Assembly: GCF_001584165.1 (NCBI RefSeq)
Contig: NZ_CP013233.1
Location: forward strand, 4,410,620-4,474,619
DNA from: Collimonas arenae
GTDB lineage: Bacteria > Pseudomonadota > Gammaproteobacteria > Burkholderiales > Burkholderiaceae_D
Length of the DNA stretch: 64,000 nt
Direction: 5' to 3'
Part shown: positions 2,549 to 32,467 of the stretch, piece by piece
How the letters are laid out: each line of letters starts with the position of its first letter
Position numbering within the stretch: the first letter of the stretch is position 1
The notes under the pieces: model-generated
Database searches by the model: none
What the model was told of the DNA's origin: nothing
What the model saw: the letters and a program-made list of their open reading frames with translations, nothing else
Translations under genes and position numbers: made by a program

Positions 2549-2581
2549 TGGGTTGGATTCGGTGCCGGTGATGGCATCGTA

Positions 2582-2950: not shown

Positions 2951-3003
2951 GGTGCTAACGGATGCACTTTAGTATTTACCAGTTTTAAAAATGAGTTAGC
3001 ACC
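2951..3003 (+). repeat. Dispersed palindrome-bounded repeat, copy 1
   Basis: A 53 bp unit bounded by GGTGCTAAC and its exact reverse complement GTTAGCACC, with the internal string TAGTATTTA shared with the other copies. It lies in the 355 bp gene-free stretch between 2794 and 3150; I see nothing else there. See the finding on this repeat family. Confidence 0.85.
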
Positions 3004-3149
3004 GGATTCGGACGGTCAAAGAGGCCAATTCGGTTGCTTCCTATAAAAACTCCGCCAAAGAGCTTTGTGGGTTCGTTGCAGCTCATATTGTTGGCAGCAA
3101 CTCACTAGTCCACTATCAGTGAATTTCTCTTTGTCCATGATATGTTCTT

Positions 3150-3335
3150 TTAATGCAACGGTAATTCAGAGTCATTATCAAACATTGCTTGCATCTGTTC
3201 CTTGGTCAAAGTCATTCCACTCGGCTTGTTTGCGATCCGCTCAGTCAAACGAATAATTTTTTCGCGATCTGCATCAGTCATTTCTGCGCATGCGTCCAAA
3301 AATTCCTGCTCTTGCTCAGTTCTATCGTTAGGCAT
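3150..3335 (-). CDS. Small acidic protein, function unknown
   Basis: A 61-residue protein whose ATG is preceded by AGGAAG at good spacing. It contains 'DADREKIIRLTERIANKPSGM', an amphipathic stretch, and no recognised domain. It is the last of three tightly spaced small genes on the minus strand (3881 to 3150) that probably form one operon. No function can be assigned. Confidence 0.5.
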   Translation of the reverse strand: MPNDRTEQEQEFLDACAEMTDADREKIIRLTERIANKPSGMTLTKEQMQAMFDNDSELPLH

Positions 3336-3350
3336 GATGCTTCCTGGAGG

Positions 3351-3548
3351 TTATGGATGCTCAAATCTGCTAGCAAGATAAGCACGAAGATCGGTAGGTG
3401 AAGATGAATCGGCATCTTTCCTTGCGTCGAACCATGTCTCCGCGTACGCTTCAACGCGACCTTCATTTACATTTTCGTCAGTCGCAAAATCACGTGCGAT
3501 TTGCAGCGCTTCCATATTGGTCTTTACCTGATCGACAGCCATTTTCAT
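3351..3548 (-). CDS. Small protein, function unknown
   Basis: A 65-residue protein beginning MKMAVDQ; either of two ATG codons could be the start. It is the middle gene of the three-gene minus-strand operon and is separated from its neighbours by about 15 bases on each side. No recognisable domain. Confidence 0.5.
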   Translation of the reverse strand: MKMAVDQVKTNMEALQIARDFATDENVNEGRVEAYAETWFDARKDADSSSPTDLRAYLASRFEHP

Positions 3549-3563
3549 TTTTCTCAGTGGGCT

Positions 3564-3881
3564 CTAAAAATCGTCGATATACGTAGAGGAAGGGACTGGC
3601 CAGTTAGCTTTGATCACTTTGTAGAGGCGATCAATCCGTGCGGTATTTTTAGCAGCGTCCGGCCCTACATAGCCATTTCCGGCCGTATTCGTTTCAAGGC
3701 GAAACAGTAAATCATCTATCTCCTTTGAACCAACTGTTTCCGACACGTACAATTTTCCTACCTTCGAAACGCGTATTTGCGTGTGAACCGAGTCGTCGCC
3801 TGTCGCGACTAAGGCAGCAATATTCGCCTTCGTAAGTTCGCCCGGCTGATTTAAATCAATTTCAAAATTTTTGTTGGTCAT
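3564..3881 (-). CDS. Hypothetical protein, first gene of a small operon
   Basis: A 105-residue protein with an AGAAAAG stretch ahead of the ATG. It has a soluble, mixed composition with 'SKVGKLYVSETVGSKEIDDLLF' in the middle and no recognised domain. It leads a three-gene operon of small proteins and lies divergent from the promoter and structured leader at 4268, with repeat copy 2 in the space between. Confidence 0.5.
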   Translation of the reverse strand: MTNKNFEIDLNQPGELTKANIAALVATGDDSVHTQIRVSKVGKLYVSETVGSKEIDDLLFRLETNTAGNGYVGPDAAKNTARIDRLYKVIKANWPVPSSTYIDDF

Positions 3882-4117
3882 AATTCACTTTTCTAGGATT
3901 GACTAAAGCATTTATGCCACTGGACTGACAACGCATCAGCACCAGATTGTCACAATCAGAATGAGCGCCAGCGAGGGGGGTTGATCTACATGAGGGCGAT
4001 CAGGGCAATGCCCCGACCGTATATAAAAATATATAGTTTTTTAATGACGCCGTATAGTGGCTGCGAACAAAAAATTTGCTGCTATGTATGCAGAAATGTA
4101 CTTTACATGAAAGTGTT

Positions 4118-4170
4118 GGTGCTAACGCGAGCACTTTAATATTTAACTGATTTAGAAACGGGTTAGCACC
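4118..4170 (+). repeat. Dispersed palindrome-bounded repeat, copy 2
   Basis: A 53 bp unit with the same GGTGCTAAC/GTTAGCACC ends and orientation as copy 1; the internal string reads TAATATTTAAC. It sits in the divergent intergenic region between the small-gene operon and the promoter at 4268. Confidence 0.85.
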
Positions 4171-4267
4171 GGACTCGCCCGATCTCTTCAGCCCGAAGGT
4201 GCTTGTGCTGGTCTCTTGCTGTTCGATGGGTACACGCCTAGGCAAACGTGAATCTTTTATAAAGTTG

Positions 4268-4296
4268 TTGACAAGAAAAGTTGTCTTATGTATAGT
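4268..4296 (+). promoter_or_regulatory. Near-consensus sigma70 promoter
   Basis: TTGACA at 4268-4273 and TATAGT at 4291-4296 are separated by exactly 17 bases. The -35 box is perfect and the -10 box is close to consensus. Transcription would start near 4303, about 365 bases before the first credible start codon at 4667, which leaves an unusually long leader. Confidence 0.75.
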
Positions 4297-4300
4297 AAAA

Positions 4301-4511
4301 GAAGCGTTAGTGCTTCAACCCAGCTTTCGCTGCCAGATTTTGCGGATACTCTCCGCGCCCTGTGGGTAACACGGCCGACATTGAGCGGTACCGTCATGTA
4401 GTTAGATTTATGACGGAAGGGGCAGGCTTGAAATTCTTTCATTCGGTATTCCGGATGCAGGAGTTCGCCTGCGAGTCTGACAGAGTCACAAAAGATGGTA
4501 TCCCTACCGTC
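4301..4511 (+). ncRNA. Candidate structured RNA or long structured leader
   Basis: Directly downstream of the strong promoter, a series of short inverted repeats follow each other: GAAGC/GCTTC (4301-4316), GCGGA/TCCGC (4342-4356), a bulged GTG/CAC stem (4359-4376), CCGTCAT/ATGACGG (4391-4416), CGG/CCG (4444-4453), GCAGG/CCTGC (4457-4472) and GATGGTA/TACCGTC (4494-4511, one G-U pair). I see no convincing coding frame here on either strand. It could be an independent small RNA, an antisense-type copy-control RNA or an attenuating leader of the gene at 4667. The RNA nature is inference from the promoter and the density of hairpins. Confidence 0.45.
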
Positions 4512-4666
4512 TTCACTTCTCCGTACGCTCATAGGCACTCAGCCTGCTAAATTTCCGTTTTCCCGATTGGTTTCGTTCGACTTTGCTTTCGTCCGCATTT
4601 GGGCTGCGCATTGTCTGCCGATGGAATTTCACTTTTAATTTTCCTATTAAATCTGAAAGGCATCAA

Positions 4667-5317
4667 ATGAAGAAAATCGTTACTAATAATTCGTCGACAC
4701 TGCGTAGTCTCCAGTTAGAGCCCTTTGATGGTCTCTCCAAGGGACCTTATTATTATCACTCGCTGAATATTTCAGTCTTTGAGAATTTTGAAGACGATCG
4801 GCCTGAGTTGTTGCAGAGAGATTGGGGTACTCTATCTGCATTTCTCACTGCTATTACTAGCAATTCGAGTGAAGACACCGCTGGCTTCAGCCCGTGGATC
4901 AATGGCACGTCAACTGCCAAGACGAACGCTATAACAGCGCTGGTGATTGACTTCGACACCAAATTCGATATCAATCAATTGGCCCCTCAGTTCCGTGACA
5001 TTGAGCGCGCCAGCTATATGGCGCGCGATCCAGAAACCGGCAACGAAATTTTCCGCGTGCTGCTTCCGCTGCTCAACCCTATCTCGCTCGAAAAATTTCT
5101 GATCCTGAAACCCACAATCCAAAATTGGGCTGATGGCATCGGCAATCATCCTGCATCCAATCCATCTAGCTACCGAGTCGGACGCTTTTGCTGCTACCCC
5201 AGCTATAACAAAGCTGACCCCGCTAGTCCACGCGTCGAATTTGCTTCTCCTGGCTGGATGCTGGACGAAAGCGCGTTTGACGAGCTGAGGGAAACTGGCG
5301 TACTGACGCTCATATAA
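4667..5317 (+). CDS. Primase-like (AEP-type) protein, divergent
   Basis: I chose ATG 4667 because it is preceded by GAAAGG; the frame runs further upstream without a good start. The 216-residue protein has the layout of an archaeo-eukaryotic primase-type domain: 'ALVIDFDTKF' (hhhDhD motif) around residue 88, then 'FRVLLPLLNP', then 'SSYRVGRFCCYP'. The same order of motifs occurs in the better preserved primase at 6886 of the same module. The expected histidine of the second motif is not evident, so the site may be degenerate. It lies downstream of the long structured leader and ahead of the replication-type genes. A role in initiation of replication is inferred from motifs and context. Confidence 0.45.
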   Translation: MKKIVTNNSSTLRSLQLEPFDGLSKGPYYYHSLNISVFENFEDDRPELLQRDWGTLSAFLTAITSNSSEDTAGFSPWINGTSTAKTNAITALVIDFDTKFDINQLAPQFRDIERASYMARDPETGNEIFRVLLPLLNPISLEKFLILKPTIQNWADGIGNHPASNPSSYRVGRFCCYPSYNKADPASPRVEFASPGWMLDESAFDELRETGVLTLI

Positions 5318-5406
5318 ACAGTTATCGCATTAGGAGCGTAATTGGGAAATTTCTGCCCAGTCCAGTCTCGGCTCCTGAAATAAAAAACACGCGGTAAACC
5401 ATCGTG

Positions 5407-5438
5407 ACCGTACTGGCGACAATGATCGCCGGTACGGT
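5407..5438 (+). other. Strong hairpin upstream of the 170-residue gene
   Basis: ACCGTACTGGCGA and TCGCCGGTACGGT pair at 12 of 13 positions around a six-base loop. No T-run follows, so it is not a standard terminator. It lies in the 172 bp gap between the primase-like gene and the gene at 5490 and could attenuate or protect the transcript. Confidence 0.5.
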
Positions 5439-5489
5439 GCCAGCGCCGCATCGTCTATCACAGAAAAATAACAATGTAAGGACTAAAAA

Positions 5490-6002
5490 ATGAAACAAAA
5501 AAATCAAGCAGTAAAAAATATGGCGGCTAGCTTTATAGGGATTGGCATCGAACAGATGCTGGCTAGATTGCATAGCGAAATCAGCTTGGCAACACAGTTC
5601 TCTCCAGCCCTTCCTCGACGCATTAACTTTGGCGTATCTCTTTGGACTTCCACTGACGTGCCATTTCCAACCTATTCTGCTTTTGAATCGGAAATTCAAC
5701 AAACTCAGCTTTGGCAGTTTGATACGTCCGACTGGAATCCTGACCTCATTGTCTACCCAACATCTCGAATTCGCGTCCGGATACCGTGTTGGGAAGGCGA
5801 GGTGCGGTGCTGGAAAAACGTTGAGTTCGCGAGCGACGACGGCACACCCTTCAAGACTGGCGAACTGCTTTTCAAACTTCACAGCGCGGTTGTGAAAAAT
5901 TCACGCGGCGCTGGTGATGTTGTTGTGGTGTCAGCCTTGAGTATGCATCGCTACCACAATCGCAAAGAGCCCCAACTGTATATCTTGGATGAAGACTACT
6001 GA
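5490..6002 (+). CDS. Unknown protein, paralogue 1 of a tandem pair
   Basis: A 170-residue soluble protein that clearly resembles the next gene: both share the order 'P.SRI.(I/V).(V/I)P', a following 'F.(S/T)(D/N)DG.PF.(T/S)GEL..K.H.A(V/L)V' segment in the C-terminal half, and a Trp-rich middle. I do not recognise the family. The start follows GTAAGGAC at normal spacing. Hairpins lie on both sides of it. Tandem duplication within a replication-type module suggests a structural or DNA/RNA-associated accessory role, but nothing in the sequence proves this. Confidence 0.6.
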   Translation: MKQKNQAVKNMAASFIGIGIEQMLARLHSEISLATQFSPALPRRINFGVSLWTSTDVPFPTYSAFESEIQQTQLWQFDTSDWNPDLIVYPTSRIRVRIPCWEGEVRCWKNVEFASDDGTPFKTGELLFKLHSAVVKNSRGAGDVVVVSALSMHRYHNRKEPQLYILDEDY

Positions 6003-6012
6003 TCTGTCGAGC

Positions 6013-6036
6013 GTATCGGCCATTCGTAGCCGATAC
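6013..6036 (+). other. Perfect 8 bp stem hairpin
   Basis: GTATCGGC and GCCGATAC pair perfectly around an eight-base loop just after the stop at 6002. There is no T-run. It precedes repeat copy 3 by seven bases. Confidence 0.5.
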
Positions 6037-6043
6037 ATCCTCG

Positions 6044-6095
6044 GGTGCTAACACACGTCACTTAGTATTTACTGATTGAGAATTGTGTTAGCACC
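6044..6095 (+). repeat. Dispersed palindrome-bounded repeat, copy 3
   Basis: A 52 bp unit with GGTGCTAAC/GTTAGCACC ends and internal TAGTATTTAC, same orientation as copies 1 and 2. It lies between the two paralogous genes at 5490 and 6137. Confidence 0.85.
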
Positions 6096-6136
6096 GCATC
6101 GTCCGCCGACAAAATAAAAACAACCTTGGAAATAAT

Positions 6137-6697
6137 ATGAACAATATCAGTCAACAAAAAAATATGACCGCGCTGGATAAAATTCGCAACAAAATTGAAA
6201 GCAATATATTGGCTGCACAACAGCCTGAACCAGTTCAACGGACATGTCGCGTCTTTGAGCCACCATTGTCACCGAAACGGGAGAGGCCACCTCATCCTGC
6301 TCGCATCACCTTCCCTACATTTTTCTGCACATTCGTCAACGTGGCGTTTCGCTGCTATTCCGATTTTGACGACATGATCGAGCACAGCCACTGGAATCAG
6401 AAACGGATCGTTTTTCCTGAGTCGCGTATTCATATTCATGTGCCACATGGATTAATGGCAAAAGATATTCCATTTCCATCACGTGTCGAACTTACGACCA
6501 ACGATGGCAGGCCATTCACGTCAGGCGAATTGTTCTACAAAATTCATAAAGCCCTGGTTGAACCCGCAGCAAACCCGTCCAGACTCCTTCACGGAGCGAA
6601 GCTCACTGCGCACCCAAACCAGTGGCCGAATGACGGCAAGCCGTATCTGTACGGATTTTATACGAAGGATAAGTGGAGCATGAATTACCCGTACTGA
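6137..6697 (+). CDS. Unknown protein, paralogue 2 of a tandem pair
   Basis: A 186-residue protein related to the preceding gene (see there), with a longer, basic, proline-rich N-terminal part (about residues 25-60) and a conserved core ending in 'TSGELFYKIHKALVE'. The start follows a GGAAATA stretch. The two copies are clearly diverged rather than a recent duplication. The 188 bp gap behind it contains a small GTCGG/CCGAC stem before the primase gene. Function unknown. Confidence 0.6.
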   Translation: MNNISQQKNMTALDKIRNKIESNILAAQQPEPVQRTCRVFEPPLSPKRERPPHPARITFPTFFCTFVNVAFRCYSDFDDMIEHSHWNQKRIVFPESRIHIHVPHGLMAKDIPFPSRVELTTNDGRPFTSGELFYKIHKALVEPAANPSRLLHGAKLTAHPNQWPNDGKPYLYGFYTKDKWSMNYPY

Positions 6698-6885
6698 TCC
6701 AAATATCACGATAAATATACCGAGTGCAATGGACAGCTGGCTAGGCACGCTGCTTCGCGAAAAGTTACCAAACGATTCGTGCCTGGCTTGCTGTCACATG
6801 CCTCGTCGGATTGGTAACCGACCAAATAACGCGAAGCGAAATCTATGTGCAGATTTCCGCCGACTAAATCGAAGGGGACTTCAAT

Positions 6886-7902
6886 ATGACGCACATGCTT
6901 AAACTTGCCATCAATCGGCACATCATCAACAAAATAGAATCTCAATCTGATCCACGCTGGGAAATATTTACAGCGCAATGCGAAAACGTCGAACTCACGC
7001 TCGATGAATTTTCTGACCATATCAATCAGGGTCACGCATTCTGCGCTCAGCATAAAAATCGCAAAAAAAATGCTAACTTCGTCGGCACCAATATTGTGAC
7101 TGTCGATATTGACAAGGGCATGACTGTCGAGCAGGCGTTGGTCGATCCATTCGTCCAGCAGTACGGCACATTGCTCTACACAACACCATCACATATGCCT
7201 GACCAGCATCGGTTTCGCCTTATCTTCATGTCGGATCGCACCATCACCGATAGCGAAGAAATGAAGCTGGCCTATAAAGGTATAATCCGAAAATTCGGCG
7301 GTGACGACTCGTGCAGCGACGCATGCCGTGGATTCTTCGGCTCGACCGGTAGCAATCCAATCATCCTCGGCAATATTTTGCCTAACGACGAACTGACTAA
7401 GCTCATTGTGCTTGGCGGCGAAAAGAGAGTATCCGCGACGATTTGTTCTGACACTGGCGGTGAGCTTGGTGGCAAATCAACTCAAACTTCGTCCGATCCG
7501 CTGGAAAAAAACCAAATGGTCAAGTTGGCGCGCGGGTTGGGTCATATGGTCTTGCTTGCGGATTTGCCGAAATGGACATCTATTCATTGCCCGAAGCATT
7601 CCGACAATAAGCCGAGCGCATTCGTCGTCACCAATAAAGATGGGATCAATGGTGTGCGCTGCCATAAGTGCCATGCCAGCTTTTGGCCACAATCTGAGCT
7701 TTGGAAAAAGCGTAAGTCCTACAATTTCTATGAGATCGAAGATTTTGTTCGCGAACAGGACTACGCTCAAACCCCCGAAAATTTCTACGACATGGATGCC
7801 GAAGATGCTCAGCCGAGCTTGCTTGATGAAACGCCGAGCGAACGGAACCATCACATTTTGAATGAAAAATATCTACCGAATATCCCGTTACATGAAGGGT
7901 AA
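6886..7902 (+). CDS. Primase part of a split primase-helicase replication protein
   Basis: This 338-residue frame holds an AEP-type primase core: 'IVTVDIDKGM' (DxD) near residue 70, 'YTTPSHMPDQHRFRLIF' (second motif) near 105, and 'DSCSDACRGFFGS' near 145. A zinc ribbon follows around residues 245-265 ('HCPKH...CHKCH'). Its last residues 'YLPNIPLHEG' run directly into a stop at 7900, while the next frame continues with 'VTFVRSPKGSGKT' if read from just before 7900. One extra G in the run at 7897-7899 fuses both into a protein of about 1000 residues like plasmid/phage primase-helicases (CyRepA-like or herpes ori-binding-like). So this is probably the N-terminal half of one gene. Confidence 0.65.
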   Translation: MTHMLKLAINRHIINKIESQSDPRWEIFTAQCENVELTLDEFSDHINQGHAFCAQHKNRKKNANFVGTNIVTVDIDKGMTVEQALVDPFVQQYGTLLYTTPSHMPDQHRFRLIFMSDRTITDSEEMKLAYKGIIRKFGGDDSCSDACRGFFGSTGSNPIILGNILPNDELTKLIVLGGEKRVSATICSDTGGELGGKSTQTSSDPLEKNQMVKLARGLGHMVLLADLPKWTSIHCPKHSDNKPSAFVVTNKDGINGVRCHKCHASFWPQSELWKKRKSYNFYEIEDFVREQDYAQTPENFYDMDAEDAQPSLLDETPSERNHHILNEKYLPNIPLHEG

Positions 7903-7907
7903 CGTTT

Positions 7908-9878
7908 GTGCGCAGTCCCAAGGGTTCAGGAAAAACAGAGTGGCTGCAAAAAATCGTCACTCAGTGTCGCCAAAAAAACCTGTCCGTGCTGCTGGTCGGC
8001 CATCGGCAATTACTCATTCAAGGGTTGGCAAAGCGTCTTGGTCTGATTTGCTATTTCTATACCCAGGGAGAAAAGTTAAAAAATAACCAGTCCGACGAAT
8101 ACTATAGTGTTTGTGTGGACAGCATCGGCAAGCTTCTTCGGCCGGATTTAGATCAATACGATGTCATCATCATGGATGAATCTGAGCAGGTTTTTTCGCA
8201 TCTGACTTCCGATACGCTCCGTGGAAAACGTCGCACTTGCTATCAGAAATTATTTTATTTTTTGCGATCAGCAAAATCAGTTATCTTCACCGATGCCGAT
8301 CTCGGACCAGTCACTATAGTGGCTGCCTGCGAATCCGTGAAAGCGAACATGCCGTATCAATTTTATCTCAACGAATTCAAGGAGAGCCGCTGCGATTTCC
8401 ATTACTACGAGAGCGACGATCATCTTGTACAAGAAATGATCAACACAATCCGAGCCGGTGGCCGTCACTACGTTTGCACGAATTCAAAAAAGAAAGCTGA
8501 AAATTTGCTGGAAGCGATTCGCTACGAATTCGGCACCAAGCGAAAAACAATGTTAGTCACTTCCGATACAGCCGGCAACGCAGACGTAAAGCATTTTGTG
8601 AATAACATTAAGACCGAAATCTTGAATTACGATGTGGTGGTCGCTTCGCCGACGTTGGGTACCGGCATCGATATTACATTCATGGAACAAGCGCAGCATA
8701 TTGATACGGTGTACGGTTTTTTTGTATCACGTGTGAACACGCATTTCGACATCGATCAGCAGCTTTCCCGCGTTCGACATCCCAAACTGATCAAGGCATG
8801 CGTTGCACCAGAGCGCTTTAACTTCGAAACCGAAGCAGATGTAATTCGCAATGAGGTGCGTGACAATGCTGCGCTTAACGATGTGTTGATTGGCTATGAA
8901 GATGATGGTCAACCGAAGTTAGATGACAGCTACCTGAATGTGTATGCCGCCGTCACTGCAATGCAACGGGCGTCGAAGAACAACCTGCGTGCGAATCTTC
9001 TGAATCTGCGAGTCAGAAATGGCTGGACTGTTCAAAACGTGGCGATGCTACCCGAACTTGCTAAAGACGGAAAGCGCCGGACGAAGGAAGCGAAAGATGT
9101 ACTGGCGGAAAAGCGCGCCGAACAAATTTGTGCCGCCGGAAAAGTCACACCCGAGACATACCAAGAACTCTACGCCATCAGCAAACAAGGCATCAAGCTA
9201 ACGCGTGATGAGGAACATGCTATGCGTCGACATGAAATCGAGGCGTTCTATCGCGAAGACATCTCCAAAGAATTAATTGACATTGATGATAATGGCAAGT
9301 ATCGCGATCAGGTACGAATGATGCAGATTTACCTGACCCCGCTGGAAAACCTGATTGATAAATCATCGGCAGAGCGGAAGGCAGGACGTTTTGTTACTGA
9401 CATGACTACTGAGCCGCTAAAAAAGACGATGCTATACGATTTACTGGAAGCTGCGGGTCTTGCTGATACGACGACGCTGATCAAAACCGGTGTAATCGTT
9501 TCGGAGAAATCATTGACGGCCTTTACTGATATGTGTCGTGCGCGTGCTTCGAAAATCCAGGAACTGTTCGGCCTGAAAGTTCACAAGAATACTGTGCAAA
9601 CGTTAGGTAGGATTTTCGACCTTATTGGGCTAAAGAATTGTCCGGCGATTCGGGAAAAAGTGAACGGTATAACAACGTACTATTATGAGCTTGATGTTGG
9701 CACGTTGAACTCGGTTCGCAACATCATCGACAAGCGTATGAGTACGTCCACTAGCTCAGCGCCTGAAATCATGGACTCTAGCAGCGGTGATAGTGGTATT
9801 GCACTCGGGCAGGCGATGAGGATGCGAGAACGGAAAATGCGTACCGACATGCCGGCGGTGCTAACGGAACTAGTCTAG
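7908..9878 (+). CDS. SF2 helicase part of the split primase-helicase
   Basis: A 656-residue frame; the GTG at 7908 leaves only two residues before Walker A ('SPKGSGKT'), which is too short for a free-standing helicase and supports fusion to the preceding primase frame. A DEAD-type box reads 'VIIMDESEQV' near residue 85, a motif resembling helicase motif V reads 'SPTLGTGIDI' near 250, and 'QQLSRVRHP' fits motif VI near 285. These features match the origin-binding / CyRepA-type replication helicases of plasmids and phages. The C-terminal 300 residues are not recognised. The stop codon lies inside repeat copy 4. It probably unwinds the origin of the island or an ancestral plasmid. Confidence 0.7.
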   Translation: MRSPKGSGKTEWLQKIVTQCRQKNLSVLLVGHRQLLIQGLAKRLGLICYFYTQGEKLKNNQSDEYYSVCVDSIGKLLRPDLDQYDVIIMDESEQVFSHLTSDTLRGKRRTCYQKLFYFLRSAKSVIFTDADLGPVTIVAACESVKANMPYQFYLNEFKESRCDFHYYESDDHLVQEMINTIRAGGRHYVCTNSKKKAENLLEAIRYEFGTKRKTMLVTSDTAGNADVKHFVNNIKTEILNYDVVVASPTLGTGIDITFMEQAQHIDTVYGFFVSRVNTHFDIDQQLSRVRHPKLIKACVAPERFNFETEADVIRNEVRDNAALNDVLIGYEDDGQPKLDDSYLNVYAAVTAMQRASKNNLRANLLNLRVRNGWTVQNVAMLPELAKDGKRRTKEAKDVLAEKRAEQICAAGKVTPETYQELYAISKQGIKLTRDEEHAMRRHEIEAFYREDISKELIDIDDNGKYRDQVRMMQIYLTPLENLIDKSSAERKAGRFVTDMTTEPLKKTMLYDLLEAAGLADTTTLIKTGVIVSEKSLTAFTDMCRARASKIQELFGLKVHKNTVQTLGRIFDLIGLKNCPAIREKVNGITTYYYELDVGTLNSVRNIIDKRMSTSTSSAPEIMDSSSGDSGIALGQAMRMRERKMRTDMPAVLTELV

Positions 9879-9909
9879 TATTTAACCGTTTTAAAATTGA
9901 GTTAGCACC
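9857..9909 (+). repeat. Dispersed palindrome-bounded repeat, copy 4
   Basis: A 53 bp unit with GGTGCTAAC/GTTAGCACC ends and internal TAGTATTTAAC. It overlaps the last 22 bases of the helicase gene, whose stop codon it supplies, and separates it from the convergent gene at 9945. Confidence 0.85.
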
Positions 9910-9944
9910 GGGTGGCTGAGAATTTTCAACCACTTCCGGTCGCC

Positions 9945-10292
9945 TCAATATTCGATCAGGTTTTTCCGTGATTTCTTATTGAGAATGTCGTCCAGTTCGG
10001 CGATCAAGCTTTTGTTCTCATGCATCGGCTCGACAGGGAATTCTTCAGTTTCGATTTTAATATCTACCAAAAGCACAACTCTGTTGTTGCGGACTGGACG
10101 GCTACCGGCACCACTATTCATTTCCTTGCGTTGAAGTTCTGCGTTCACTGCACGATAGACCCCTGCCATTAGCTTGTCTGTTAAATCTTTGCGGGCACGT
10201 TTAATCTGATCTCGGCGCCCCTTGAAGGTGATGGGATTTCGTACTATGTCTACCAGAGTTTGCCAGGTAGTTTGGACTGCTCGAATTTGCAT
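9945..10292 (-). CDS. Basic hypothetical protein
   Basis: A 115-residue protein with a strongly basic N-terminal half ('KGRRDQIKRARKDLTDKL' around residues 24-41) and an acidic C-terminal half. No family recognised. It is the last gene of a three-gene minus-strand group (11060 to 9945) and is preceded by a long perfect hairpin. The basic helix could bind nucleic acid, but this is only a guess from composition. Confidence 0.5.
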   Translation of the reverse strand: MQIRAVQTTWQTLVDIVRNPITFKGRRDQIKRARKDLTDKLMAGVYRAVNAELQRKEMNSGAGSRPVRNNRVVLLVDIKIETEEFPVEPMHENKSLIAELDDILNKKSRKNLIEY

Positions 10293-10319
10293 ATTTTTCC
10301 TGTTCTTAAAATCGTTGTG

Positions 10320-10347
10320 ATCTGCGCTGCCCTGTGGCAGCGCAGAT
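10320..10347 (-). other. 12 bp perfect hairpin between two genes
   Basis: ATCTGCGCTGCC and GGCAGCGCAGAT form an unbroken 12 bp stem with a four-base loop. No T-run follows on either strand. It lies between the stop of the 139-residue gene and the start of the 115-residue gene, so it could set differential expression within the operon. Confidence 0.6.
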
Positions 10348-10377
10348 ATTCAATATTTGGGGAAGCCCTGTTCGCGA

Positions 10378-10797
10378 CTAAGTGAGTACCAGTGGCTCGC
10401 TGATCGAGCTGCTGGTAATAACGTCAGATGCGTTTGCCAATGCGGCACGCGCCAACGCCTGTTGAAGATTTACCTCCATACCGGTATCTGGCCACCAAAT
10501 CACATCTTCATCGTGGAGAATCTCCCAATTCGGGTATGGATCGCGGCTGAACGTCACGCACAACGATCCGTCGTCCAACTCGTCGAAGTCGCAATCAGCA
10601 ATCAGTCCGATATCATCCTCCTTAATGTTCTGCCAAATGAGTATCCGAAAGTTGCGAAGACCGTATTTTTTCTCCAGTACGACGGCAATTCGCTGAGCAA
10701 CCCAAACGTGGAATGCGTTGAGCGAATGCTCGTCACTCAGGTCGTAAAAATCGCGGTAGCGGGAATTGACAACGTATTTGCATGTCATATCGCCCAT
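10378..10797 (-). CDS. Hypothetical protein
   Basis: I place the start at ATG 10797, preceded by GGAGG seven bases upstream; the open frame continues 19 codons further without a better signal. The 139-residue protein is acidic and soluble, with 'SLNAFHVWVAQRIAVVLEKKYGL' in the N-terminal half. No domain recognised. The start lies just after the stop of the preceding 86-residue gene, so the two are probably translated together. Confidence 0.5.
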   Translation of the reverse strand: MGDMTCKYVVNSRYRDFYDLSDEHSLNAFHVWVAQRIAVVLEKKYGLRNFRILIWQNIKEDDIGLIADCDFDELDDGSLCVTFSRDPYPNWEILHDEDVIWWPDTGMEVNLQQALARAALANASDVITSSSISEPLVLT

Positions 10798-10799
10798 GA

Positions 10800-11060
10800 T
10801 CAAGCCTCCAACCGAAATGTGGCGACGTTGCCTGAGCCGGAATCGTCTATGCAACGGCAGTAGTCATGCCGGAGAATGTCGGGCTTCGGCTTCGCTTCCA
10901 AGATTTCGAAATCATGGTAGACGTAGCGATACAAGAATGACGGCTTGCGCAGGTATTGAACCGGCTTAGAGGTGGTACAAGGGAATATGTTAAGTGACAT
11001 AGAAAGTCCATGAAAATTTGTAGTTGTGTTCAGTCCTCCAAAAACGTCTCGGATAAACAT
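10800..11060 (-). CDS. Small hypothetical protein
   Basis: An 86-residue frame; an internal ATG at 11000 would give 66 residues and neither start has a strong binding site. The conserved-looking part is 'PSFLYRYVYHDFEILEAKPKPD' followed by 'RHDYCRCID'. Its stop is next to the ribosome binding site of the gene at 10797. No function assigned. Confidence 0.4.
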   Translation of the reverse strand: MFIRDVFGGLNTTTNFHGLSMSLNIFPCTTSKPVQYLRKPSFLYRYVYHDFEILEAKPKPDILRHDYCRCIDDSGSGNVATFRLEA

Positions 11061-11414
11061 GAACTTCTAACGCCCACCAAATTCGGCATAAAGCGGCGTG
11101 CCAGCTCGGGACTGGCTACAAATCAACATGGCTTGGGCGGGGACAACCCGCGGACAATCGCCACCAACAGGTGATTAAATCTGTCAGCGCTAGCAAGCAT
11201 ATAGAAATAGTTTCTTTTTGTCAATGCCAATTTAGCGCGGGTTAATTTATGTTGCAACCATCTCGCTCATCCGCTGACTGGCATCCGCCGTACCTACCTC
11301 ACACTTTAAGTTGCCTACTTATATGTTCTTATCTGGCGGCCTATAGAAATGGTCCTGACGGCGTATAGGACGGCCGGTCTGATGGTCGACGGCAACCTCT
11401 CTGCGTGTCAGTAC
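11061..11414. other. Gene-free stretch
   Basis: I see no credible gene here. A GTCCT/AGGAC inverted repeat with a ten-base spacer lies near 11353-11372. The stretch ends at the 129 bp repeat that precedes the tyrosine recombinase. Confidence 0.5.
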
Positions 11415-11543
11415 AAATGTTTACTTAAAACAATTAGTAAACAAGCCTATGCCTGGCGCCATCTTTCCGATGTACGAAACAAAATAGGCTGGATAGAATG
11501 TTTTTAAGATTGAAAATTTGGCAATTTAATAAACATTCTGGAG
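11415..11543 (+). repeat. 129 bp inverted-repeat arm A with recombinase-type core site
   Basis: This unit contains TGTTTACT-N10-AGTAAACA (11418-11443), an eight-base inverted repeat around a ten-base spacer of the kind bound by tyrosine recombinases. It also holds a promoter-like TGTACG-N17-TAGAAT (11471-11499) and ends at the ribosome binding site of the recombinase gene. A related copy of the same length (by eye roughly 70 percent identical) lies in inverted orientation at 25936-26064. Confidence 0.65.
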
Positions 11544-11549
11544 AGCTTT

Positions 11550-12143
11550 ATGAAGGAAGGCCAAGCCAAGGTGCTGTCGGAGACAGAATTCAGGCGCGTA
11601 GTAAATTTAGTCAAAAAGAAGGCGCATGCAAAACGGAATATCGCATTGCTCTATTGTTCGTTTGGACTCGGACTACGCGCCAAAGAAATGGCATCGCTAA
11701 AAGTGAAGCATGTCCTCGGCATCGATGGCGAGTTGCTGGAAGAAATCAACCTCGATAGTTCGATGACCAAAGGCCGGAAACAGCGTCATGTTTTTTTAAC
11801 GAACTCTCGGGTCATCGACGCCTTCCGTTACTATTTGCATGACCGGCAAAAGCAAGAAGGAATTTTGTTCAACTACGATGCTGCGCTGTTCCTATCGCAG
11901 AAAGGCGATGCGTTTTCGCCGAACACTCTGCAACAGCTATTTCATCGCATGTTCCGAGAGGCCCGATTACAGGGAGCATCAAGCCATTCTGGGCGCCGAT
12001 CATTCGCGACAGCATTGATAGAAAAAGGGATAGACATCAAAGCAGTCTCGACGTTGATGGGGCATTCCAGTATCGCCATGACAGCGAAGTATGTTCAGGA
12101 TAATCCAGTGCGATTGAAACAGATATGCACTGATTTATTCTAA
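11550..12143 (+). CDS. Short tyrosine recombinase (catalytic domain only)
   Basis: A 197-residue site-specific recombinase with the full catalytic set: Arg in 'GLGLRAKEM' (near residue 43), the beta-hairpin Lys region 'TKGRKQRH', 'SHSGRRSFAT' (HxxR, near 151), 'LMGHSSIAM' (His, near 174) and Tyr in 'TAKYVQ' (near 183). The N-terminal core-binding domain of phage and Xer recombinases is absent, so its size is that of FimB/FimE-type invertases. The ATG follows GGAGAG. A core-like inverted repeat lies about 105 bases upstream. It may act on the 129 bp inverted pair, the dispersed GGTGCTAAC repeats, or neither. Confidence 0.85.
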   Translation: MKEGQAKVLSETEFRRVVNLVKKKAHAKRNIALLYCSFGLGLRAKEMASLKVKHVLGIDGELLEEINLDSSMTKGRKQRHVFLTNSRVIDAFRYYLHDRQKQEGILFNYDAALFLSQKGDAFSPNTLQQLFHRMFREARLQGASSHSGRRSFATALIEKGIDIKAVSTLMGHSSIAMTAKYVQDNPVRLKQICTDLF

Positions 12144-12212
12144 TCATTCGATGCCATCACTGTCGAAAGGTAGCCTGAACTTTCAAATTCAGGACAGCTA
12201 ATATTTCAGATC

Positions 12213-12557
12213 TTAGGCACCGAAAAATTTTATCAAAGTGCCGATAATACTAGAAAAATTCGAGCCAATAGCGCTTGCCTTTTCCATCTTTTCAATGCCG
12301 CTAACAGCTGCCACGTCATTTGCATTTGATGTGTAGAAATTTACAGTCCCAATGTGACTAGCTAACAGAGAATTTTTTGGTTGCTCTGACTCCACCGCAT
12401 TTTCTTTTTTTTCTGAATTTCTGGGAGCGTAACGTTCTTTTGAAACAAGGAAGGTGTTAGCTTGAAGATTGTCATATGCAAGCTCACCCCCTAGCTCAAC
12501 GGTTCTTAGAAGGCGTTGCAATTCCGCGTCAATGCGAATTGCAATTGAGGCATACAT
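12213..12557 (-). CDS. Hypothetical protein downstream of the CDI-like locus
   Basis: A 114-residue protein overlapping the end of the preceding gene in another frame. It starts 'MYASIAIRIDAELQRLL' and ends with a short hydrophobic 'SSIIGTLIKFFGA' tail. No family recognised. It lies at the end of the minus-strand run that begins with tpsB/tpsA, where extra toxin/immunity genes are often found. Confidence 0.45.
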   Translation of the reverse strand: MYASIAIRIDAELQRLLRTVELGGELAYDNLQANTFLVSKERYAPRNSEKKENAVESEQPKNSLLASHIGTVNFYTSNANDVAAVSGIEKMEKASAIGSNFSSIIGTLIKFFGA

Positions 12558-12844: not shown

Positions 12845-12991
12845 TTATTATCTCGCGTCGATTTTGACGCAGTGACTACCCGCGGTCGCACTCACGAGGT
12901 ATATTCTTCATTCCCTCAACTAGTTTCCACGTACCAGTGTATGCAATCGGAAAAATTAACTTGAATAACTAATGCTAGTTCAGGTTTTCCT

Positions 12992-13408: not shown

Positions 13409-16400
13409 GGCGATGCTCCTTGTACAACTGAAACCACATTACTTATACCCACAGTGCAGGTAGTCATCAAAGTGGTCGACGCTGTTCCTCCAGGTACTGC
13501 CGGAATACCTCTGATACCCAAATTATATGCGCCACCAGCTACTTGCCCGTTAGTAATAACTGTCGTTCCTGAGGCGCCCACACCACCAAAATCAACACCC
13601 AAATTAATGTTCGTAGATTGCCCTCGCAAATCTGCTGCAGTACCTTTGTTCGCACCCAACGCAATGCTGGCCGAGGGATCAAAACCAAAACCTTTGCCAT
13701 ATGTCCAGTAACTGCCCGTATCAAATGTATTTTGGCCGAGGGTAAGGTATACCCCCGCTCCAGCTGAAACACCATAACCTACAACTATTGTCCCGTTAGG
13801 GCCAACCGTAAATGTTAATGGCTGCTTAGATGGGTTGCTTGGCAACCCTGTCGAATATTCGCCAGTATTCCAGCCCGCCGCAAACGGATTAACGTATGGT
13901 TGAGGCACTGCACCTGGCGTTGCCACATTACTCCACGTGTACATACTACCGCCATTAGCTTGAATAAAATTTCTCAGATCTGCCGGCGGTGTTTGCAGCA
14001 TTGCTGAATTTTGCGCCAGAGAATTATTCCCTTTCCCATCGCCTGTCAGCACCATTCCGGTAGTGTCATAGATAGCGCTTGCCGGTGTGTTTGAGTTCAA
14101 TGGCACAACAGCCGTACTTAGGGTTGTCTCACCCAGTTGGATATTATTCGCCGCGCGTAATGCATTCTCAAAATCTCCTGCCGTATACGCCGACCCGTCA
14201 GACTTCACCAATCCTTGTGCATTGGCCTTATCTGCGAGTTGTTTCGCCAATGTTTTTTCTTTAGCCTTGCTATCTTCATGCAATTGGCGATTGTTTTGGT
14301 CCGCAATCAATCCAACATTCGCGCCAGTCGTAGCACCCTGCGTGCCACCGCCAGCCAGCATGCCTGAAGCAGCCCCAACCAAAGTCGCACCCAGATTCAT
14401 CATGTCGTTGAAGGCTTGCGAACCAGGTTTATAGCCTTGGCTGACCAGATAATCGCTCATAATTGGCACCATCGCTTCATGCGTCATTCCAGCAATAGCA
14501 CCAGCGGCAGCGCTACCGCCGCCGATTTTGGCTTCGATCAATCCGACGATCCCGTGCAAGGCGATCTTTTCCGGGGAACCGTCTGGCCATTTTCCTTGTG
14601 CCATATCGCCGACCATACCGGCCAACGTCGCACCAACTAGCCCTGCAGCACGCTGATTCTCTTGCGCTTTCTGCTGTTGTGCCTGCAGATCCTGCGCTTG
14701 CTGCAGAGTCAAGGTGTTCGCCAGCGACTGATTCGCCGTAGCCGCATCGCGGCTGGTCAGCGTCGTTGCGTTCGCCTGGCTCTGCGCATCTTTCGCACCG
14801 TCGCCGGTACCAGTGATGGTGACATTGGCCGGACTGATCACGCTGTTGGTGCTACTGGTCTGATCACCGCTCTTTGGCATGCCGATACCGCCGTTCAGAT
14901 TACCCAACACATTATTCATGACATTGCTGGCGATGCTACTGGTCGAGGCACTGGCACTGACGCTCTGCGAATCAGTATGTTGCGTGTTCGTCAGATCGCT
15001 ATAGGTCAAGCTGGCCGTCTGCAGGCTGTTTTTGTCAGGCGTGGCCGTGCTGGTGATGGCTGCGCCTTTCAGGTCGGTATTGCCCTTGACCTTGATATCG
15101 AAGCCATCGCTGCCAGCAACGATGCCGCTTTGTCCGACCGCGCTCTGATAGTTGTGATCAACTGATTGCTTTGCATAGCTGACACTGCCGCTTACCATTT
15201 GTCCGACACAGATCGGCGGAACGCAGATACTCAGACTGAAGCCACCGCTTTCCTGCTTGCTGTCGAAGTTGCTGACGTTTTGCAGGGTCCAGATATTGAG
15301 ATCACCGCCCACATCTGCAGTCACCTTGTTGCCGGCCAGTTGCGCGCCCTTCATGTTGAGATCGCCGCCGCTCTTAACGCTCAACTGATTGGTGGCGCTG
15401 ATCTGCGTGTTGTCGTAGGTGGTTTCGGTGCCGTTGGCATGGCCCTTCGAAACCGATGCACCAATCTGGAAACTCAAGCCGGTCTGCTGACCGTTGGAGC
15501 CGAGCGTGGCGCCGATACCGGCACTGCTGCCGCTATTGGAAGATTGCAGATCGGCGGTGCTCTTGGCTGCGCTCAGGTTAATATTTTTAGCGGCATCAAG
15601 ACTGATGTCTTGCGCCTGCAGCTTGGCGCCTTCCATATTGATATCGCCCTCTCTGGCGGCGATATCAATGCTACCGGCTTGCGCCGTGGTGCCGCGTGCC
15701 TGGGTGGCGCTATTCTTGCTGTCCTGCTTGCTTTGGCTCGTGCCGAGATTGACGCTGATGCCGAAGCCCGCACCCGCACCTGCATTGGCGGGATTGTCCT
15801 TTCCGACCAGACCATCCTGCGTTGCGCCGACGCTATTCTGGACAGCGTTGCCTACACCGGGAAGAGCACCGGCAAGTTTGTAAGCGTCATAGCCCGCTTT
15901 CAAGGCCAGCGCGCCCTTGAGGCGGTCATTGCTGGTGTTCTGACGTTCGGTCGCCATATCCCCTATGTTGGTGAGCGCACCGCCGATAGCACCCGTTAAA
16001 CTGCTGCCCAAGGTGACGCTGTGGGTCTCAGCATGGAACTGACTATTGCTGCTGTCCTGGATTGCCTGCAAATCAACGGCATTACCGCCGATGCTGAGCT
16101 TGTCCTTGGCAATGAGTTCCGCACCCTGGGTGGTCACGTTACCCTGTCCGGTGCCCTTGTATTGTTTGTCCAGTCCGGCTTGCATGTTCAGATTACCGCC
16201 ATTGGCCGAGATCAGGCTGGTGCTCTGCGTCGTGCTGTTGCCGGTGCCGTTTTGTTCCGCGCTAGTCTGACTGTAATTCGTGAAGCGGAAGTTGGCGCCG
16301 CCCATGACACCGATGCTGGTGCCGCTGCTGTGACTGTCGCTCTGCGAAGTTTGTGTATTGGCAGCAGCCAGCACGTTGATATTGCGTCCGGCGTTAATGC

Positions 16401-23131: not shown

Positions 23132-23610
23132 CTGGCTGCGGCTGCCCCCACCACCTCATTCAAAATGATGTTGGCGCTGCCGCCCGATAGATTGGGGTTG
23201 CCCTGAATTTGCCCTGCGAGCTGGGTTCCGACAACCACTCTGGAATTGTTCAGGACCGCGCCCTGGCTCCCCACTGAGAAGGAGTTAAATTGATTGTGCG
23301 ACAAGCCGGTGGAATTCGGGCTGGCAATCTGCACCAAGGGAATGCCGCTGGCCGTTTGCGTCACGGTCGGACGTATGTTCGGCGCGGCATTCGGGTTGGC
23401 GACGATCTGAGCGTTGACCCCGCTGACACATCCGAACAGCGCTAAGACAGCAACGACCAGGTGCGCGAAGCGCATCAGCGGCGCATGAATCACGCCAGAA
23501 CTGCTCGACTCACTACCGCTGCCCTTGGACTGATTGGAAATATTTTCTGCCACGACGACCAGAGCGTTACGTGGTTTGCTGAAAATCACGCGGAAATTTT
23601 GCTTGTTCAT
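23128..23610 (-). CDS. TpsA/CdiA-like exoprotein, N-terminal segment
   Basis: I place the start at ATG 23610, which opens an extended signal peptide region beginning 'MNKQNFRVIFSKPRNALVVVAE', typical of very large two-partner and autotransporter proteins, with a hydrophobic core and cleavage near 'VSGVNAQ'. The TPS domain then begins ('QFNSFSVGSQGAVLNNS') and breaks off after 'NIILNEVVGAAAAS'. With the three one-base repairs, the whole gene would run from 23610 to 13399, about 3400 residues, exported across the outer membrane by the TpsB encoded just upstream. Confidence 0.8.
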   Translation of the reverse strand: MNKQNFRVIFSKPRNALVVVAENISNQSKGSGSESSSSGVIHAPLMRFAHLVVAVLALFGCVSGVNAQIVANPNAAPNIRPTVTQTASGIPLVQIASPNSTGLSHNQFNSFSVGSQGAVLNNSRVVVGTQLAGQIQGNPNLSGGSANIILNEVVGAAAAS

Positions 23611-23648
23611 TTTATTTTTCCAATGCAGGGAATTTGAATCTGCAGCAC

Positions 23649-25070
23649 TTAATATTGATAGGTCAAGTTGAAGCCAACAGCAGGCATGGCGGTATTGAAA
23701 CCTTGCGGCTTGTATAGCGCCCAACTGGAAAACACGTCATAGCTCAAACCATAGAAGCCGCCGCGCAAGCCAAGGGCAGCGCCGGCCAGCTTATTGCCGA
23801 GCAAACCAGAATTACCCGCTCTATCGGCTGTCTGCGGCCAACCGGCAACACTAGGTCCGTAGACTTGTCCATAGTCGAGGCCGACATAGGCAGATTGGCC
23901 GCTATTAGCGATTGGCAGATTCAGTTCATTGCGCAGATAAAATCCGCGTTCAGCGGCCAGGGTCAGCTCTCCATCGAAACCGCGCACCGTGTATCGGTTG
24001 CCGATGCTGAATTGATCCGCCAGGATGAGCTGCGAACGCGAGGTTTGACCGTGCAGTGTGCCAATGTAGGTCACCGGCTGATCAGCGATCTTGAACGGTA
24101 CGCTCAAGGTGGCGTCGATGGTCTGCAAGGTGTAGTGCAGGTTATTGGTGGTGGGATTTTCTTGTCCGGCGAGATCCTTCAAATACGTCTGACCGTTGAA
24201 CCAATTCACACCCCATCTGTTAGCTATCGACAGATCCAGTTGCGCGCTGCCGAAGTAATGGGTGTGCACCCAAGCCAGCTCAGCGTAAGTGGTATCGCGG
24301 TTTTGCAACTGGATTTCGGCATCATCCACATAGGCATGGCTCCAGCGCTTGCCGACTTTGAATTGCCAGCTGTTCTTTTGCTGCTGGTCACGCTGGAACA
24401 GTTGCGAAATCTTCAGTTCCAGATTGCGCGATTTTCCGTGAGAAATAAATGGCTGACTCGCTTGCGCCACCGCTTGATGATAATCATAGGTGCTGCCCGA
24501 GACCGCGAAGTTCCAATATCCGAAAGGGATAGCGTAGTAAATATTGTTGCCGGTGGTGCCGCGCTGGCCAGCCTTGCGGTCAGCATCGGTGCTGATGCCG
24601 ATATTGAACAGATCATTAAGTCCCAAGGGATTGTCGACGGCTAGATTCAGGCCCGCTTGCAGCTTACCGGTGCCCTTGGCGCCGCTGTCGTCCAGCGTGC
24701 CAGTCAGCTTCCACGGCGTGCTGCGCTTTACCGAAATCACCACATCGCTTTCACCAGGCGTATCGCCCGGCACGATCTGCATGTCCACATCCTGGCTCGG
24801 AACACGTTTCATCTGTTCCAGCCCTTGCTCCAGGTCGCGCAGATTGAGCAGCTTGCCGGGACCAGTCGGGAAAGCCGTCTTCCAAGTGCCGTACAGGCTC
24901 GGATCGCTAAAGCGAATCGCGTGGATCACACCAGGGATCAGCGTCAACGTGAGGGTGCCGGCGGCAATATCTTGTCCTGGAATACCCACACGCGTAGTGC
25001 TGTAGCCCGCTCTAAAATCCGGTTGGTCAGACGCTTGACGATCACGTTCAAGCCGTTTTTCCCAACACAA
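23649..25070 (-). CDS. TpsB/CdiB-type outer membrane transporter, C-terminal segment
   Basis: The 473-residue frame carries the second POTRA domain and the ShlB/FhaC barrel, ending in an aromatic residue ('NLTYQY') as expected for outer membrane beta-barrels, and the conserved 'SIGNRYTVRGFDGE' loop (VRGY/F motif, near residue 375). Its first 20 codons are out of frame with the real protein: one G added opposite 25006-25008 joins 'TNRILERGYSTTRVGIPGQD' across the two frames. It exports the TpsA protein encoded immediately downstream. Confidence 0.85.
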   Translation of the reverse strand: MCWEKRLERDRQASDQPDFRAGYSTTRVGIPGQDIAAGTLTLTLIPGVIHAIRFSDPSLYGTWKTAFPTGPGKLLNLRDLEQGLEQMKRVPSQDVDMQIVPGDTPGESDVVISVKRSTPWKLTGTLDDSGAKGTGKLQAGLNLAVDNPLGLNDLFNIGISTDADRKAGQRGTTGNNIYYAIPFGYWNFAVSGSTYDYHQAVAQASQPFISHGKSRNLELKISQLFQRDQQQKNSWQFKVGKRWSHAYVDDAEIQLQNRDTTYAELAWVHTHYFGSAQLDLSIANRWGVNWFNGQTYLKDLAGQENPTTNNLHYTLQTIDATLSVPFKIADQPVTYIGTLHGQTSRSQLILADQFSIGNRYTVRGFDGELTLAAERGFYLRNELNLPIANSGQSAYVGLDYGQVYGPSVAGWPQTADRAGNSGLLGNKLAGAALGLRGGFYGLSYDVFSSWALYKPQGFNTAMPAVGFNLTYQY

Positions 25071-25465
25071 GCGCCATCGTAGCGCCGCAGGTAATCCTGA
25101 GCAAAGCGGAAGGGATCGTGCGGTAAATCACTGGCGCCGACAGCACGGACCGATGGCGATAACTGCGCCGGCACATCCAGGACGAATTGATGAATGGTAA
25201 AACAAGGAGTTTCGGCCGGCAGAGCTAGGCTGTCTATGTCCTCCGCTGGCGTAGCGGCTTGCAAAGTGACGTTCGGCGCCTGCAACTGGCGCTGCCTCTC
25301 CTGCGCTTCAGCCTGGCTGCGGCGGCGCTGTTCTTCACTATCGGGCGTTTGCACCGATTGGGCATGCAAGTTGGGTATGGCGCCGGCCAATAGCAAAGCC
25401 AGGCTAACGCCCTTGGCAAAGCCGTACGGATTCCCCTTACGTCTAAAACGCTTCCCCATTTCCAC
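24944..25465 (-). CDS. TpsB/CdiB-type outer membrane transporter, N-terminal segment
   Basis: This frame has a signal peptide (hydrophobic 'VSLALLLAGAIPNLHAQ') and the first POTRA domain with 'YDGACVGKNGLNVIVKRLTNRIL', a conserved stretch in ShlB/FhaC proteins. The GTG at 25465 or the ATG two codons later can be the start; AGGAAAG precedes both. The frame leaves the family pattern after 'RILER', where one G is missing. Together with the next segment it would make a transporter of about 575 residues. Confidence 0.8.
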   Translation of the reverse strand: MEMGKRFRRKGNPYGFAKGVSLALLLAGAIPNLHAQSVQTPDSEEQRRRSQAEAQERQRQLQAPNVTLQAATPAEDIDSLALPAETPCFTIHQFVLDVPAQLSPSVRAVGASDLPHDPFRFAQDYLRRYDGACVGKNGLNVIVKRLTNRILERATALRVWVFQDKILPPAPSR

Positions 25466-25751
25466 TGCTTTCCTGTTGTTTTTGTTTGGAAAGAGAGAGT
25501 GTGAGAGAACTTGAATGTTATTTGCTGGTTAACGACAGGAATTTGCCAAAGTTCACCTTTGTGGTTGCAATAAAACAACGATTGCCATAAGGGAATAGGC
25601 CTTACAGGCTATCGGCAACCAAAAAAATCCATAGAAATGCAGCAAAAAACGCGTTATTTTGCGTCACGTTGATGTAGTCGATTGCCCGCGACCCCCACGT
25701 GCCTTGGACGCTTTGCATTTTGGCGAGTTTGGAGGCGTATCCAGAATTGAC

Positions 25752-25803
25752 GGTGCTAACACTCGCCGTCTAGTATTTAACAGTATGGAATTGTGTTAGC
25801 ACC
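25752..25803 (+). repeat. Dispersed palindrome-bounded repeat, copy 5
   Basis: A 52 bp unit with GGTGCTAAC/GTTAGCACC ends and internal TAGTATTTAAC, same orientation as the other four although it lies 16 kb from copy 4. It is in the 830 bp gene-free stretch upstream of tpsB. Confidence 0.85.
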
Positions 25804-32406: not shown

Positions 32407-32467
32407 TAGATTTATTGCCATAATGCAAATATTTGTGGGATTTGGCGGAAAGCAAAATCTCGATTCA

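Follow-up and report, generated by a model that had tools for sequence, protein, structure and literature searches.

Inverted-repeat elements at module joints of integrated islands in Oxalobacteraceae: candidate recombination sites and a candidate catalytic-domain-only integrase

A stretch of 64,000 nucleotides of the Collimonas arenae chromosome (NZ_CP013233.1, positions 4,410,620 to 4,474,619; hereafter the window) contains a dispersed repeat of 52–53 bp with inverted ends, which we call type A. It occurs in a family of islands integrated into the chromosomes of Oxalobacteraceae, and we found related islands to carry other inverted-repeat-ended elements (types B, C and D) at the same joints as type A. 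Tentatively, and with a confidence a little short of even, we read the repeats as recombination sites that join gene modules in the manner of dif modules or integron cassettes, with the short tyrosine recombinase Int of the island as the likeliest enzyme. An original prediction, made from the window sequence, had offered three options: a recombination site making a cassette array, a structured RNA and a simple non-autonomous mobile unit. The first fits best, given the recurrent joints, the change of content at the repeat edge and the presence of Int in 5/5 genomes with type A, while the other two are not well supported.

Type A in the window has the pattern GGTGCTAAC-N34/35-GTTAGCACC, which had no match in 100 dinucleotide shuffles. 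The five predicted full copies, with perfect GGTGCTAAC and GTTAGCACC ends, were all found where they had been placed (Table 1), and their common orientation was borne out, all lying on the + strand. An internal string thought to be shared by all five, TAGTATTTA, is present in four; copy 2 has TAATATTTA instead. The sixth, partial and inverted copy is present on the – strand: its GGTGCTAAC end is at 32488–32496, and it resembles the full copies up to ..GAGATTTTG but has lost the GTTAGCACC end. Copy 4 was said to supply a stop codon, and the open reading frame (ORF) at 7908–9878 does terminate within it. Besides this copy, none overlaps an ORF with a relative in other islands; mechanically called ORFs do cross copies 2 and 3 (4000–4245, – strand, spanning copy 2; 5872–6054, – strand, covering the left edge of copy 3). 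The paralogous ORFs on the two sides of copy 3 are 31.5% identical over 130 aa.

In our searches, the repeat was confined to islands of this family. The C. arenae genome (one contig of 4,723,987 bp) has the five full copies and no other exact end pair, and a search with relaxed ends and the core found no further type A copy in it, the rest of the chromosome and the right half of the window included. In a family sample of 392 genomes, searched with exact ends and then with relaxed ends and the core, the exact ends occurred in three genomes and the relaxed pattern in four: the window genome, C. humicola (G186), Massilia sp. ST3 (G325) and G356. A scan of GTDB species genomes gave 11 stretches, five of them (from three genomes) with type A, and added a fifth genome, a Rugamonas metagenome-assembled genome (MAG) with four copies. 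The six other, single matches (two Bacteroidota, a Vicingaceae, two Clostridia-type and one cyanobacterium) lack the outer GG and were rejected as chance. The total is 13 full copies in five Oxalobacteraceae genomes plus the half copy, with eight of the full ones outside the window and all in related islands. Type A is rare within genera (1/62 genomes in that of G325 and 2/74 in that of G356). Three pattern scans of viral contigs returned 30 stretches, of which none combined the two type A ends with the core, and plasmids had no match to the one repeat region tested or to the first small-operon gene. One viral contig (L019, 2995–3278) contains clustered direct and inverted GGTGCTAAC 9-mers, which are iteron-like and in an arrangement unlike that of the repeat.

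Conservation is concentrated at the ends. In the 13 copies, seven of the nine outer pairs are invariant and the 9-bp arms are always separated by 34–36 bp. The fifth outer pair of G356 is altered on both sides, from C–G to A–T (GGTGATAAC..GTTATCACC), and one Massilia copy has the pair broken at the first base. The interiors are 46–91% identical (46 equal-length pairs), the lengths range over 52–54 bp and there are one to five copies per genome. None of the 13 copies is flanked by a target-site duplication or other direct repeat.

The joints themselves recur among islands with different elements. Behind the gene of the CyRepA1-like replication helicase, type A is found in the window and in Massilia ST3 (in opposite orientations), type B in G315, type C in G265 and type D in G356. 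Upstream of a small three-gene operon, the element is type A in the window (the half copy), Massilia ST3, two Rugamonas contigs and G356, and type C in G265; none was seen at this joint in C. humicola or G315. Upstream of the conserved leader of the replication module, the window has type A and G315 a degenerate type B, and no element was apparent by eye in Massilia or G356. Type B (GACAACAC..GTGTTGTC) is exact at 10484–10529 of G315, has two to three end changes at 10376–10422 and 15851–15896, and occurs twice beside Int in the Rugamonas MAG (46–48 bp). Its identity rests on the arms common to the two genomes beside Int and not on an inverted-repeat family scan, which also returned GC-rich or other chance families (in L067, L068, L069, L084, L086, L087, L106, L137 and L138) and, in L030, some families stemming from duplicated DNA. 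A type B pattern run over the 392 genomes was too loose to be used, matching 222 of them with a reversed control about equally frequent. Type C consists of two 93-bp copies in G265 (88% identical), and type D of tandem elements of about 83 bp in G356 (79.5% identical), in addition to the type A copy of that genome.

For each CyRepA1-like gene, the highest-scoring inverted repeat in the 300 bp surrounding the gene end was compared with those of eight shuffles. The score exceeded the shuffle maximum in four of the five islands and tied with it in Massilia; in G315, the best-scoring repeat sits between the two type B copies. Among 29 other CyRepA1-like loci used as controls (five plasmids and 24 viral contigs, some of the latter apparently near-duplicates), four beat the maximum and seven tied. 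One viral contig (L149) has a perfect 21-bp inverted repeat at +48 to +110 past the gene, and C. humicola (L087, 16021–16210) has two adjacent palindromes with TGGGGTCAGAGT ends that are REP-like.

To locate the breaks, we compared the 200-bp flanks of 14 type A copies in all 91 pairs, against up to 600 shuffled comparisons. For the five copies beside the small operon, the GTTAGCACC-side (operon) flank was homologous in 10/10 pairs and the GGTGCTAAC-side flank in 1/10. Copy 5 and the C. humicola copy, which are probably orthologous, have the GTTAGCACC side in common (score 40); their other sides are not clearly alike (23, with a null maximum of 24), and the cargo there differs, being RHS genes in C. 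humicola. The two Rugamonas contigs are 82% identical across 1.38 kb beginning 1 bp outside the repeat and diverge at the repeat edge. Directly beside the repeat, their conserved side is weakly alike (7/20 ungapped), making the repeat an island of conservation and not the mere end of a conserved block. Weak right-flank matches of the pairs c3-rug2b and c3-g356 (score 28, null maximum 24) were read as chance among the 91 pairs.

Several units resemble cassettes when genes are called with a simple ORF caller. In Rugamonas (L069, 16811–17812), a repeat is followed by a same-strand ORF of 252 aa that ends 17 bp ahead of the next repeat, and in L106 (6839–8070) the Int stop is followed after 8 bp by type B and then by a 356-aa ORF that ends 24 bp ahead of the next type B. 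Two copies enclose the operon in L068 (16990–18875), and the replication module of the window lies between copies 2 and 4.

The candidate enzyme accompanies the repeats. Six residues, R43, K74, H146, R149, H172 and Y181, are invariant in six aligned Ints including that of the window and align to XerC-like proteins and XerA; we take them to be the catalytic R-K-H-R-H-Y set. With its 197 aa, Int aligns only with the C-terminal part of XerC/XerD (from residue 102 of the XerC-like 4a8e and residue 105 of the XerC model), and the N-terminal core-binding domain is absent; simple-type tyrosine recombinases are described as core-binding plus catalytic domains in PMC8138268. Int is present in each of the five type A genomes at 75–100% identity, that of C. 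humicola being truncated (127 aa, 94%), and in the family sample Int is found at E≤1e-40 in 10/392 genomes. The only other full-length Ints of at least 70% in that sample, those of G315 (75%) and G265 (71%), occur without type A, and the two genomes carry type B and type C elements, respectively, near Int. No Int relative was found in the viral contigs. A Pfam scan of 25 window ORFs gave only Int and a large serine recombinase as recombinases. We regard Int as the likeliest enzyme because it is the only recombinase besides the serine one among these ORFs, has the complete catalytic set and accompanies the repeats also in the genomes without a helicase match. The conserved region upstream of int recurs, inverted and with no int gene, beside repeat copy 5, and a comparable relic adjoins the repeat of C. 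humicola. In that genome (L030, 10092–16372), the relic of the int promoter is directed to the right and the 3' part of int is found on the opposite strand, at a distance of 5.8 kb and behind RHS genes, an arrangement that looks like the product of an inversion through the gene. G276 and G381 have a single 10-bp inverted repeat just upstream of Int.

In the mechanism that we find most plausible, gene modules would be joined, exchanged or lost through site-specific recombination at the repeats, most likely catalyzed by the catalytic-domain-only Int of the island. Exchange would take place at or beside the GGTGCTAAC edge, leaving the repeat attached to the module that lies on its GTTAGCACC side, and the site may be active as an extruded hairpin. 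Several observations weigh against this proposal. A highly active Int would be expected to destabilize an island with five direct copies, and we saw no excised circle, inverted isomer or pair of strains with and without a block, in a comparison made without reads or close strains. The 15.9 kb between copies 4 and 5 contain genes of either strand. It is the promoter side of the operon that is conserved, and selection on the operon could produce part of the one-sided pattern. Types C and D have neither ends nor length in common with types A and B. Massilia has type A, and its Int resembles the Rugamonas Int next to type B copies (86%) more than that of the window (75%); Int similarity thus does not follow repeat type, which counts against recognition of a sequence by Int. 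Type A was absent from G028, a Collimonas with an Int fragment (88% over 85 aa, one stop), and from G298, G381 and G276 (Int about 55%), and the 12–20 kb read in these four contained at most GC-rich chance families. Nor does covariation beyond shuffles support a folded site: the score of the drawn structure, with an outer and an inner stem, was reached by 105/500 shuffles, 66.7% of the cells of the inner helix are paired, and RNAalifold retains the outer stem and two pairs only. A conserved inner stem (with bulged AGT/ACT and a paired change in one Rugamonas copy) had looked promising by eye and failed the shuffle control.

The main rival, which we consider unlikely but a serious contender, is that the elements serve replication or maintenance of the island, bound by the CyRepA1-like helicase or primase as an origin, a second ori-like site or a priming hairpin, or used for dimer resolution, and were scattered by duplication. 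The replication module has such elements on both sides in the window (copies 2 and 4) as well as in G315 (type B at 10376–10529 and degenerate B at 15851), and at the joint behind the helicase gene the element type tracks helicase similarity, being the same at 70% and different at 47%, with C and D, which are similar inside by eye, at 41%. However, two of the five type A genomes, C. humicola and the Rugamonas MAG (95% complete), have no helicase relative at E≤1e-6, and G356 has type D behind its helicase and type A elsewhere. The 29 control loci indicate that CyRepA1-like genes are not generally followed by an inverted repeat and, together with the absence of the gene from the two genomes, weaken the idea of an origin at this position. 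Five dispersed copies would also exceed the need of an origin, and CyRepA2 is described as needing its ORF and the region upstream of it in PMC10079941.

Two further explanations appear less probable still. Miniature inverted-repeat transposable elements (MITEs) are short, dispersed and bounded by terminal inverted repeats, and a similar non-autonomous unit, moved in trans by some transposase and landing between genes, would share with type A the inverted ends, the size, the mostly intergenic placement and the low, dispersed copy number. We nevertheless think it quite improbable: 13/13 copies lack target duplications, the diverged interiors do not indicate a recent burst, other element types occupy the same recurrent joints, and no copy lies outside the island in its own genome. 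A boundary element in transcription or RNA, such as a terminator, antiterminator or insulator hairpin at operon ends, has about as poor a prospect or a slightly poorer one. Many copies stand at operon ends in the sense of the neighboring gene (by eye, uncounted), and of nine terminator-like matches in window 2500–12200, two fall within copies 1 and 2, where the T-rich core follows a short GGTGC/GCACT stem. The scan was no richer than shuffles (mean 10.8), though, and copies 3 and 4 were unmatched; the repeat has no Rfam match, and its relation to transcription is not fixed. Some copies lie between divergent ORFs, and behind the helicase the window and Massilia copies point in opposite directions. 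In a parallel case, attC hairpins are reviewed as not terminating transcription in PMC8876359.

Among known systems, the repeats work most like dif modules and integron cassettes and yet fail defining features of both. The pdif sites are about 28 bp long, with two 11-bp Xer arms around a 6-bp centre, and are used by the host XerCD, whereas the 9-bp arms seen here stand far wider apart and the candidate enzyme is encoded by the island and lacks the N-terminal domain. The likeness is in the arrangement: dif modules, with the pdif sites of Acinetobacter plasmids, are gene modules bounded by short tyrosine-recombinase sites, with content and configuration varying around a replication backbone (PMC13141974). 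On module shuffling of the dif type, our data show one-sided homology and changed content at the repeat edge, with no isomers seen. In size, type A is near the smallest attC sites. As in attC, types A and B have inverted-repeat ends with AAC...GTT at the inner edge, site sequences differ, one edge is probably active, and there are repeat–gene–repeat units. The attC core site is GTTRRRY (PMC8876359), which the core GTTAGCA misfits at positions 6 and 7; types C and D lack AAC...GTT, the blocks are as long as 15.9 kb with genes on both strands, and covariation does not exceed shuffles. No type A genome (0/5) has IntI (TIGR02249) above the cut-off, with sub-threshold matches only, as in 14 control genomes; this and the core misfit rule out membership in attC. 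Shufflons (Rci/sfx) and Fim-type invertases similarly combine a tyrosine recombinase with several sites, and Int matches two models of tyrosine-type DNA invertases below the cut-off. The sfx site of shufflons is a 19-bp asymmetric site, unlike type A, and the window has no inverted full copy. We found no earlier description of the repeat in a literature search limited to titles and the starts of abstracts.

The islands typically contain a large serine recombinase, the three-gene operon, the short tyrosine recombinase, often the CyRepA1-like replication gene, and defense or toxin cargo (Table 1). In tblastn comparisons, the helicase is up to 31.5% identical to annotated CyRepA1 plasmid genes over 93% of the query, and 148 plasmid records match it, at least 95 of which bear cyanobacterial genus names; a plasmid replication protein like those of the CyRepA1 family thus sits in a chromosomal betaproteobacterial island. 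Helicase relatives (E≤1e-6) were present in 5 of 11 genomes tested. The leader is 74–75% identical to Massilia ST3, G356 and G315, follows a strong promoter-like site at 4268–4296 (11/12) and has no Rfam match even at E≤1 (4268–4658); it is a candidate structured RNA, copy-control RNA or origin of the replication module. The ORF at 4583–5317, which the original prediction had called AEP-like (archaeo-eukaryotic primase), had no family match in library scans of window ORFs. A role of type A as operator of the small operon was rejected, as the promoter region (GCAATAAA..TGTACGATTT..GCTGGATA) can be aligned by eye in G265, G315 and C. humicola without type A.

Table 1. Features of the island in the window (coordinates in the 64,000-nucleotide stretch)
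Feature	Coordinates	Strand	Remarks
Type A copy 1	2951..3003	+	53 bp
Type A copy 2	4118..4170	+	53 bp, TAATATTTA variant; precedes conserved leader and replication module
Conserved leader	4303..4658	+	No assigned gene; upstream of replication module
ORF earlier called AEP-like	4583..5317	+	Relatives in G315 (45%) and G356 (23%)
Type A copy 3	6044..6095	+	52 bp; separates two paralogous ORFs of replication module
Primase-like ORF	6886..7902	+	Top PHROG match has unknown function; DNA primases follow
CyRepA1-like replication helicase	7908..9878	+	Relative of plasmid proteins annotated CyRepA1 family
Type A copy 4	9857..9909	+	53 bp; contains stop codon of CyRepA1-like gene
Conserved int upstream region	11415..11544	+	Consensus TTTACTAAATGCAATTAGTAAACA ... 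CTGGATAGAAT
Int	11550..12143	+	197-aa tyrosine recombinase, catalytic domain only; candidate enzyme
Type A copy 5	25752..25803	+	52 bp; adjoins two-partner secretion (TPS) locus
Second int upstream region	25936..26064	–	71.5% identical, inverted; adjoins copy 5; no int gene
Small operon gene 3	31179..31490	–	
Small operon gene 2	31480..31905	–	DUF1249/DUF6908
Small operon gene 1	31986..32339	–	
Truncated type A copy	32444..32496	–	3' end lost; upstream of small operon
Large serine recombinase of island	33502..35316	–	

A fragment of a Mg-chelatase (comM-like) gene at 35370–35636 adjoins the serine recombinase. The cargo is a TPS haemagglutinin locus in the window, RHS/Ntox33 genes in C. humicola, AAA_15/OLD and UvrD genes with BamHI/methylase genes in Massilia ST3, and relatives of the AAA_15/OLD and UvrD pair plus a methylase in G356. 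We take the OLD/AAA_15 and UvrD pair (L067, 15314–20534; L081, 10530–14939) to be Gabija-like; it adjoins a BamHI-like endonuclease and a methylase, or a methylase. In Rugamonas (L106, 8101–8886 and 10691–11317), a gene related to the one behind a type C copy in G265 is duplicated on both sides of the serine recombinase (72.8% nucleotide identity).

The modular rebuilding of mobile islands is usually ascribed to homologous or illegitimate recombination. Here, a candidate dedicated site and a candidate enzyme are found on one island, and the cargo at the joints comprises Gabija-like, restriction-modification, TPS and RHS toxin-type loci. It is conceivable, although we rate the chance as low, that the islands represent a further natural cassette system beside integrons and dif modules, in which a catalytic-domain-only integrase recognizes inverted-repeat-ended sites by their shape and lineages use the unrelated types A–D at the same joints to swap replication, defense and toxin modules. 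Recognition by shape would explain why Int similarity does not follow repeat type, although covariation gives it no support. If the repeats were instead replication sites, they would be candidate cis elements of CyRepA1-like replicons outside cyanobacteria. The Int family is common on plasmids, with 428 of 72,556 records matching at E≤1e-15 (163 Acinetobacter and 145 Piscirickettsia), and the question therefore extends to many more replicons.

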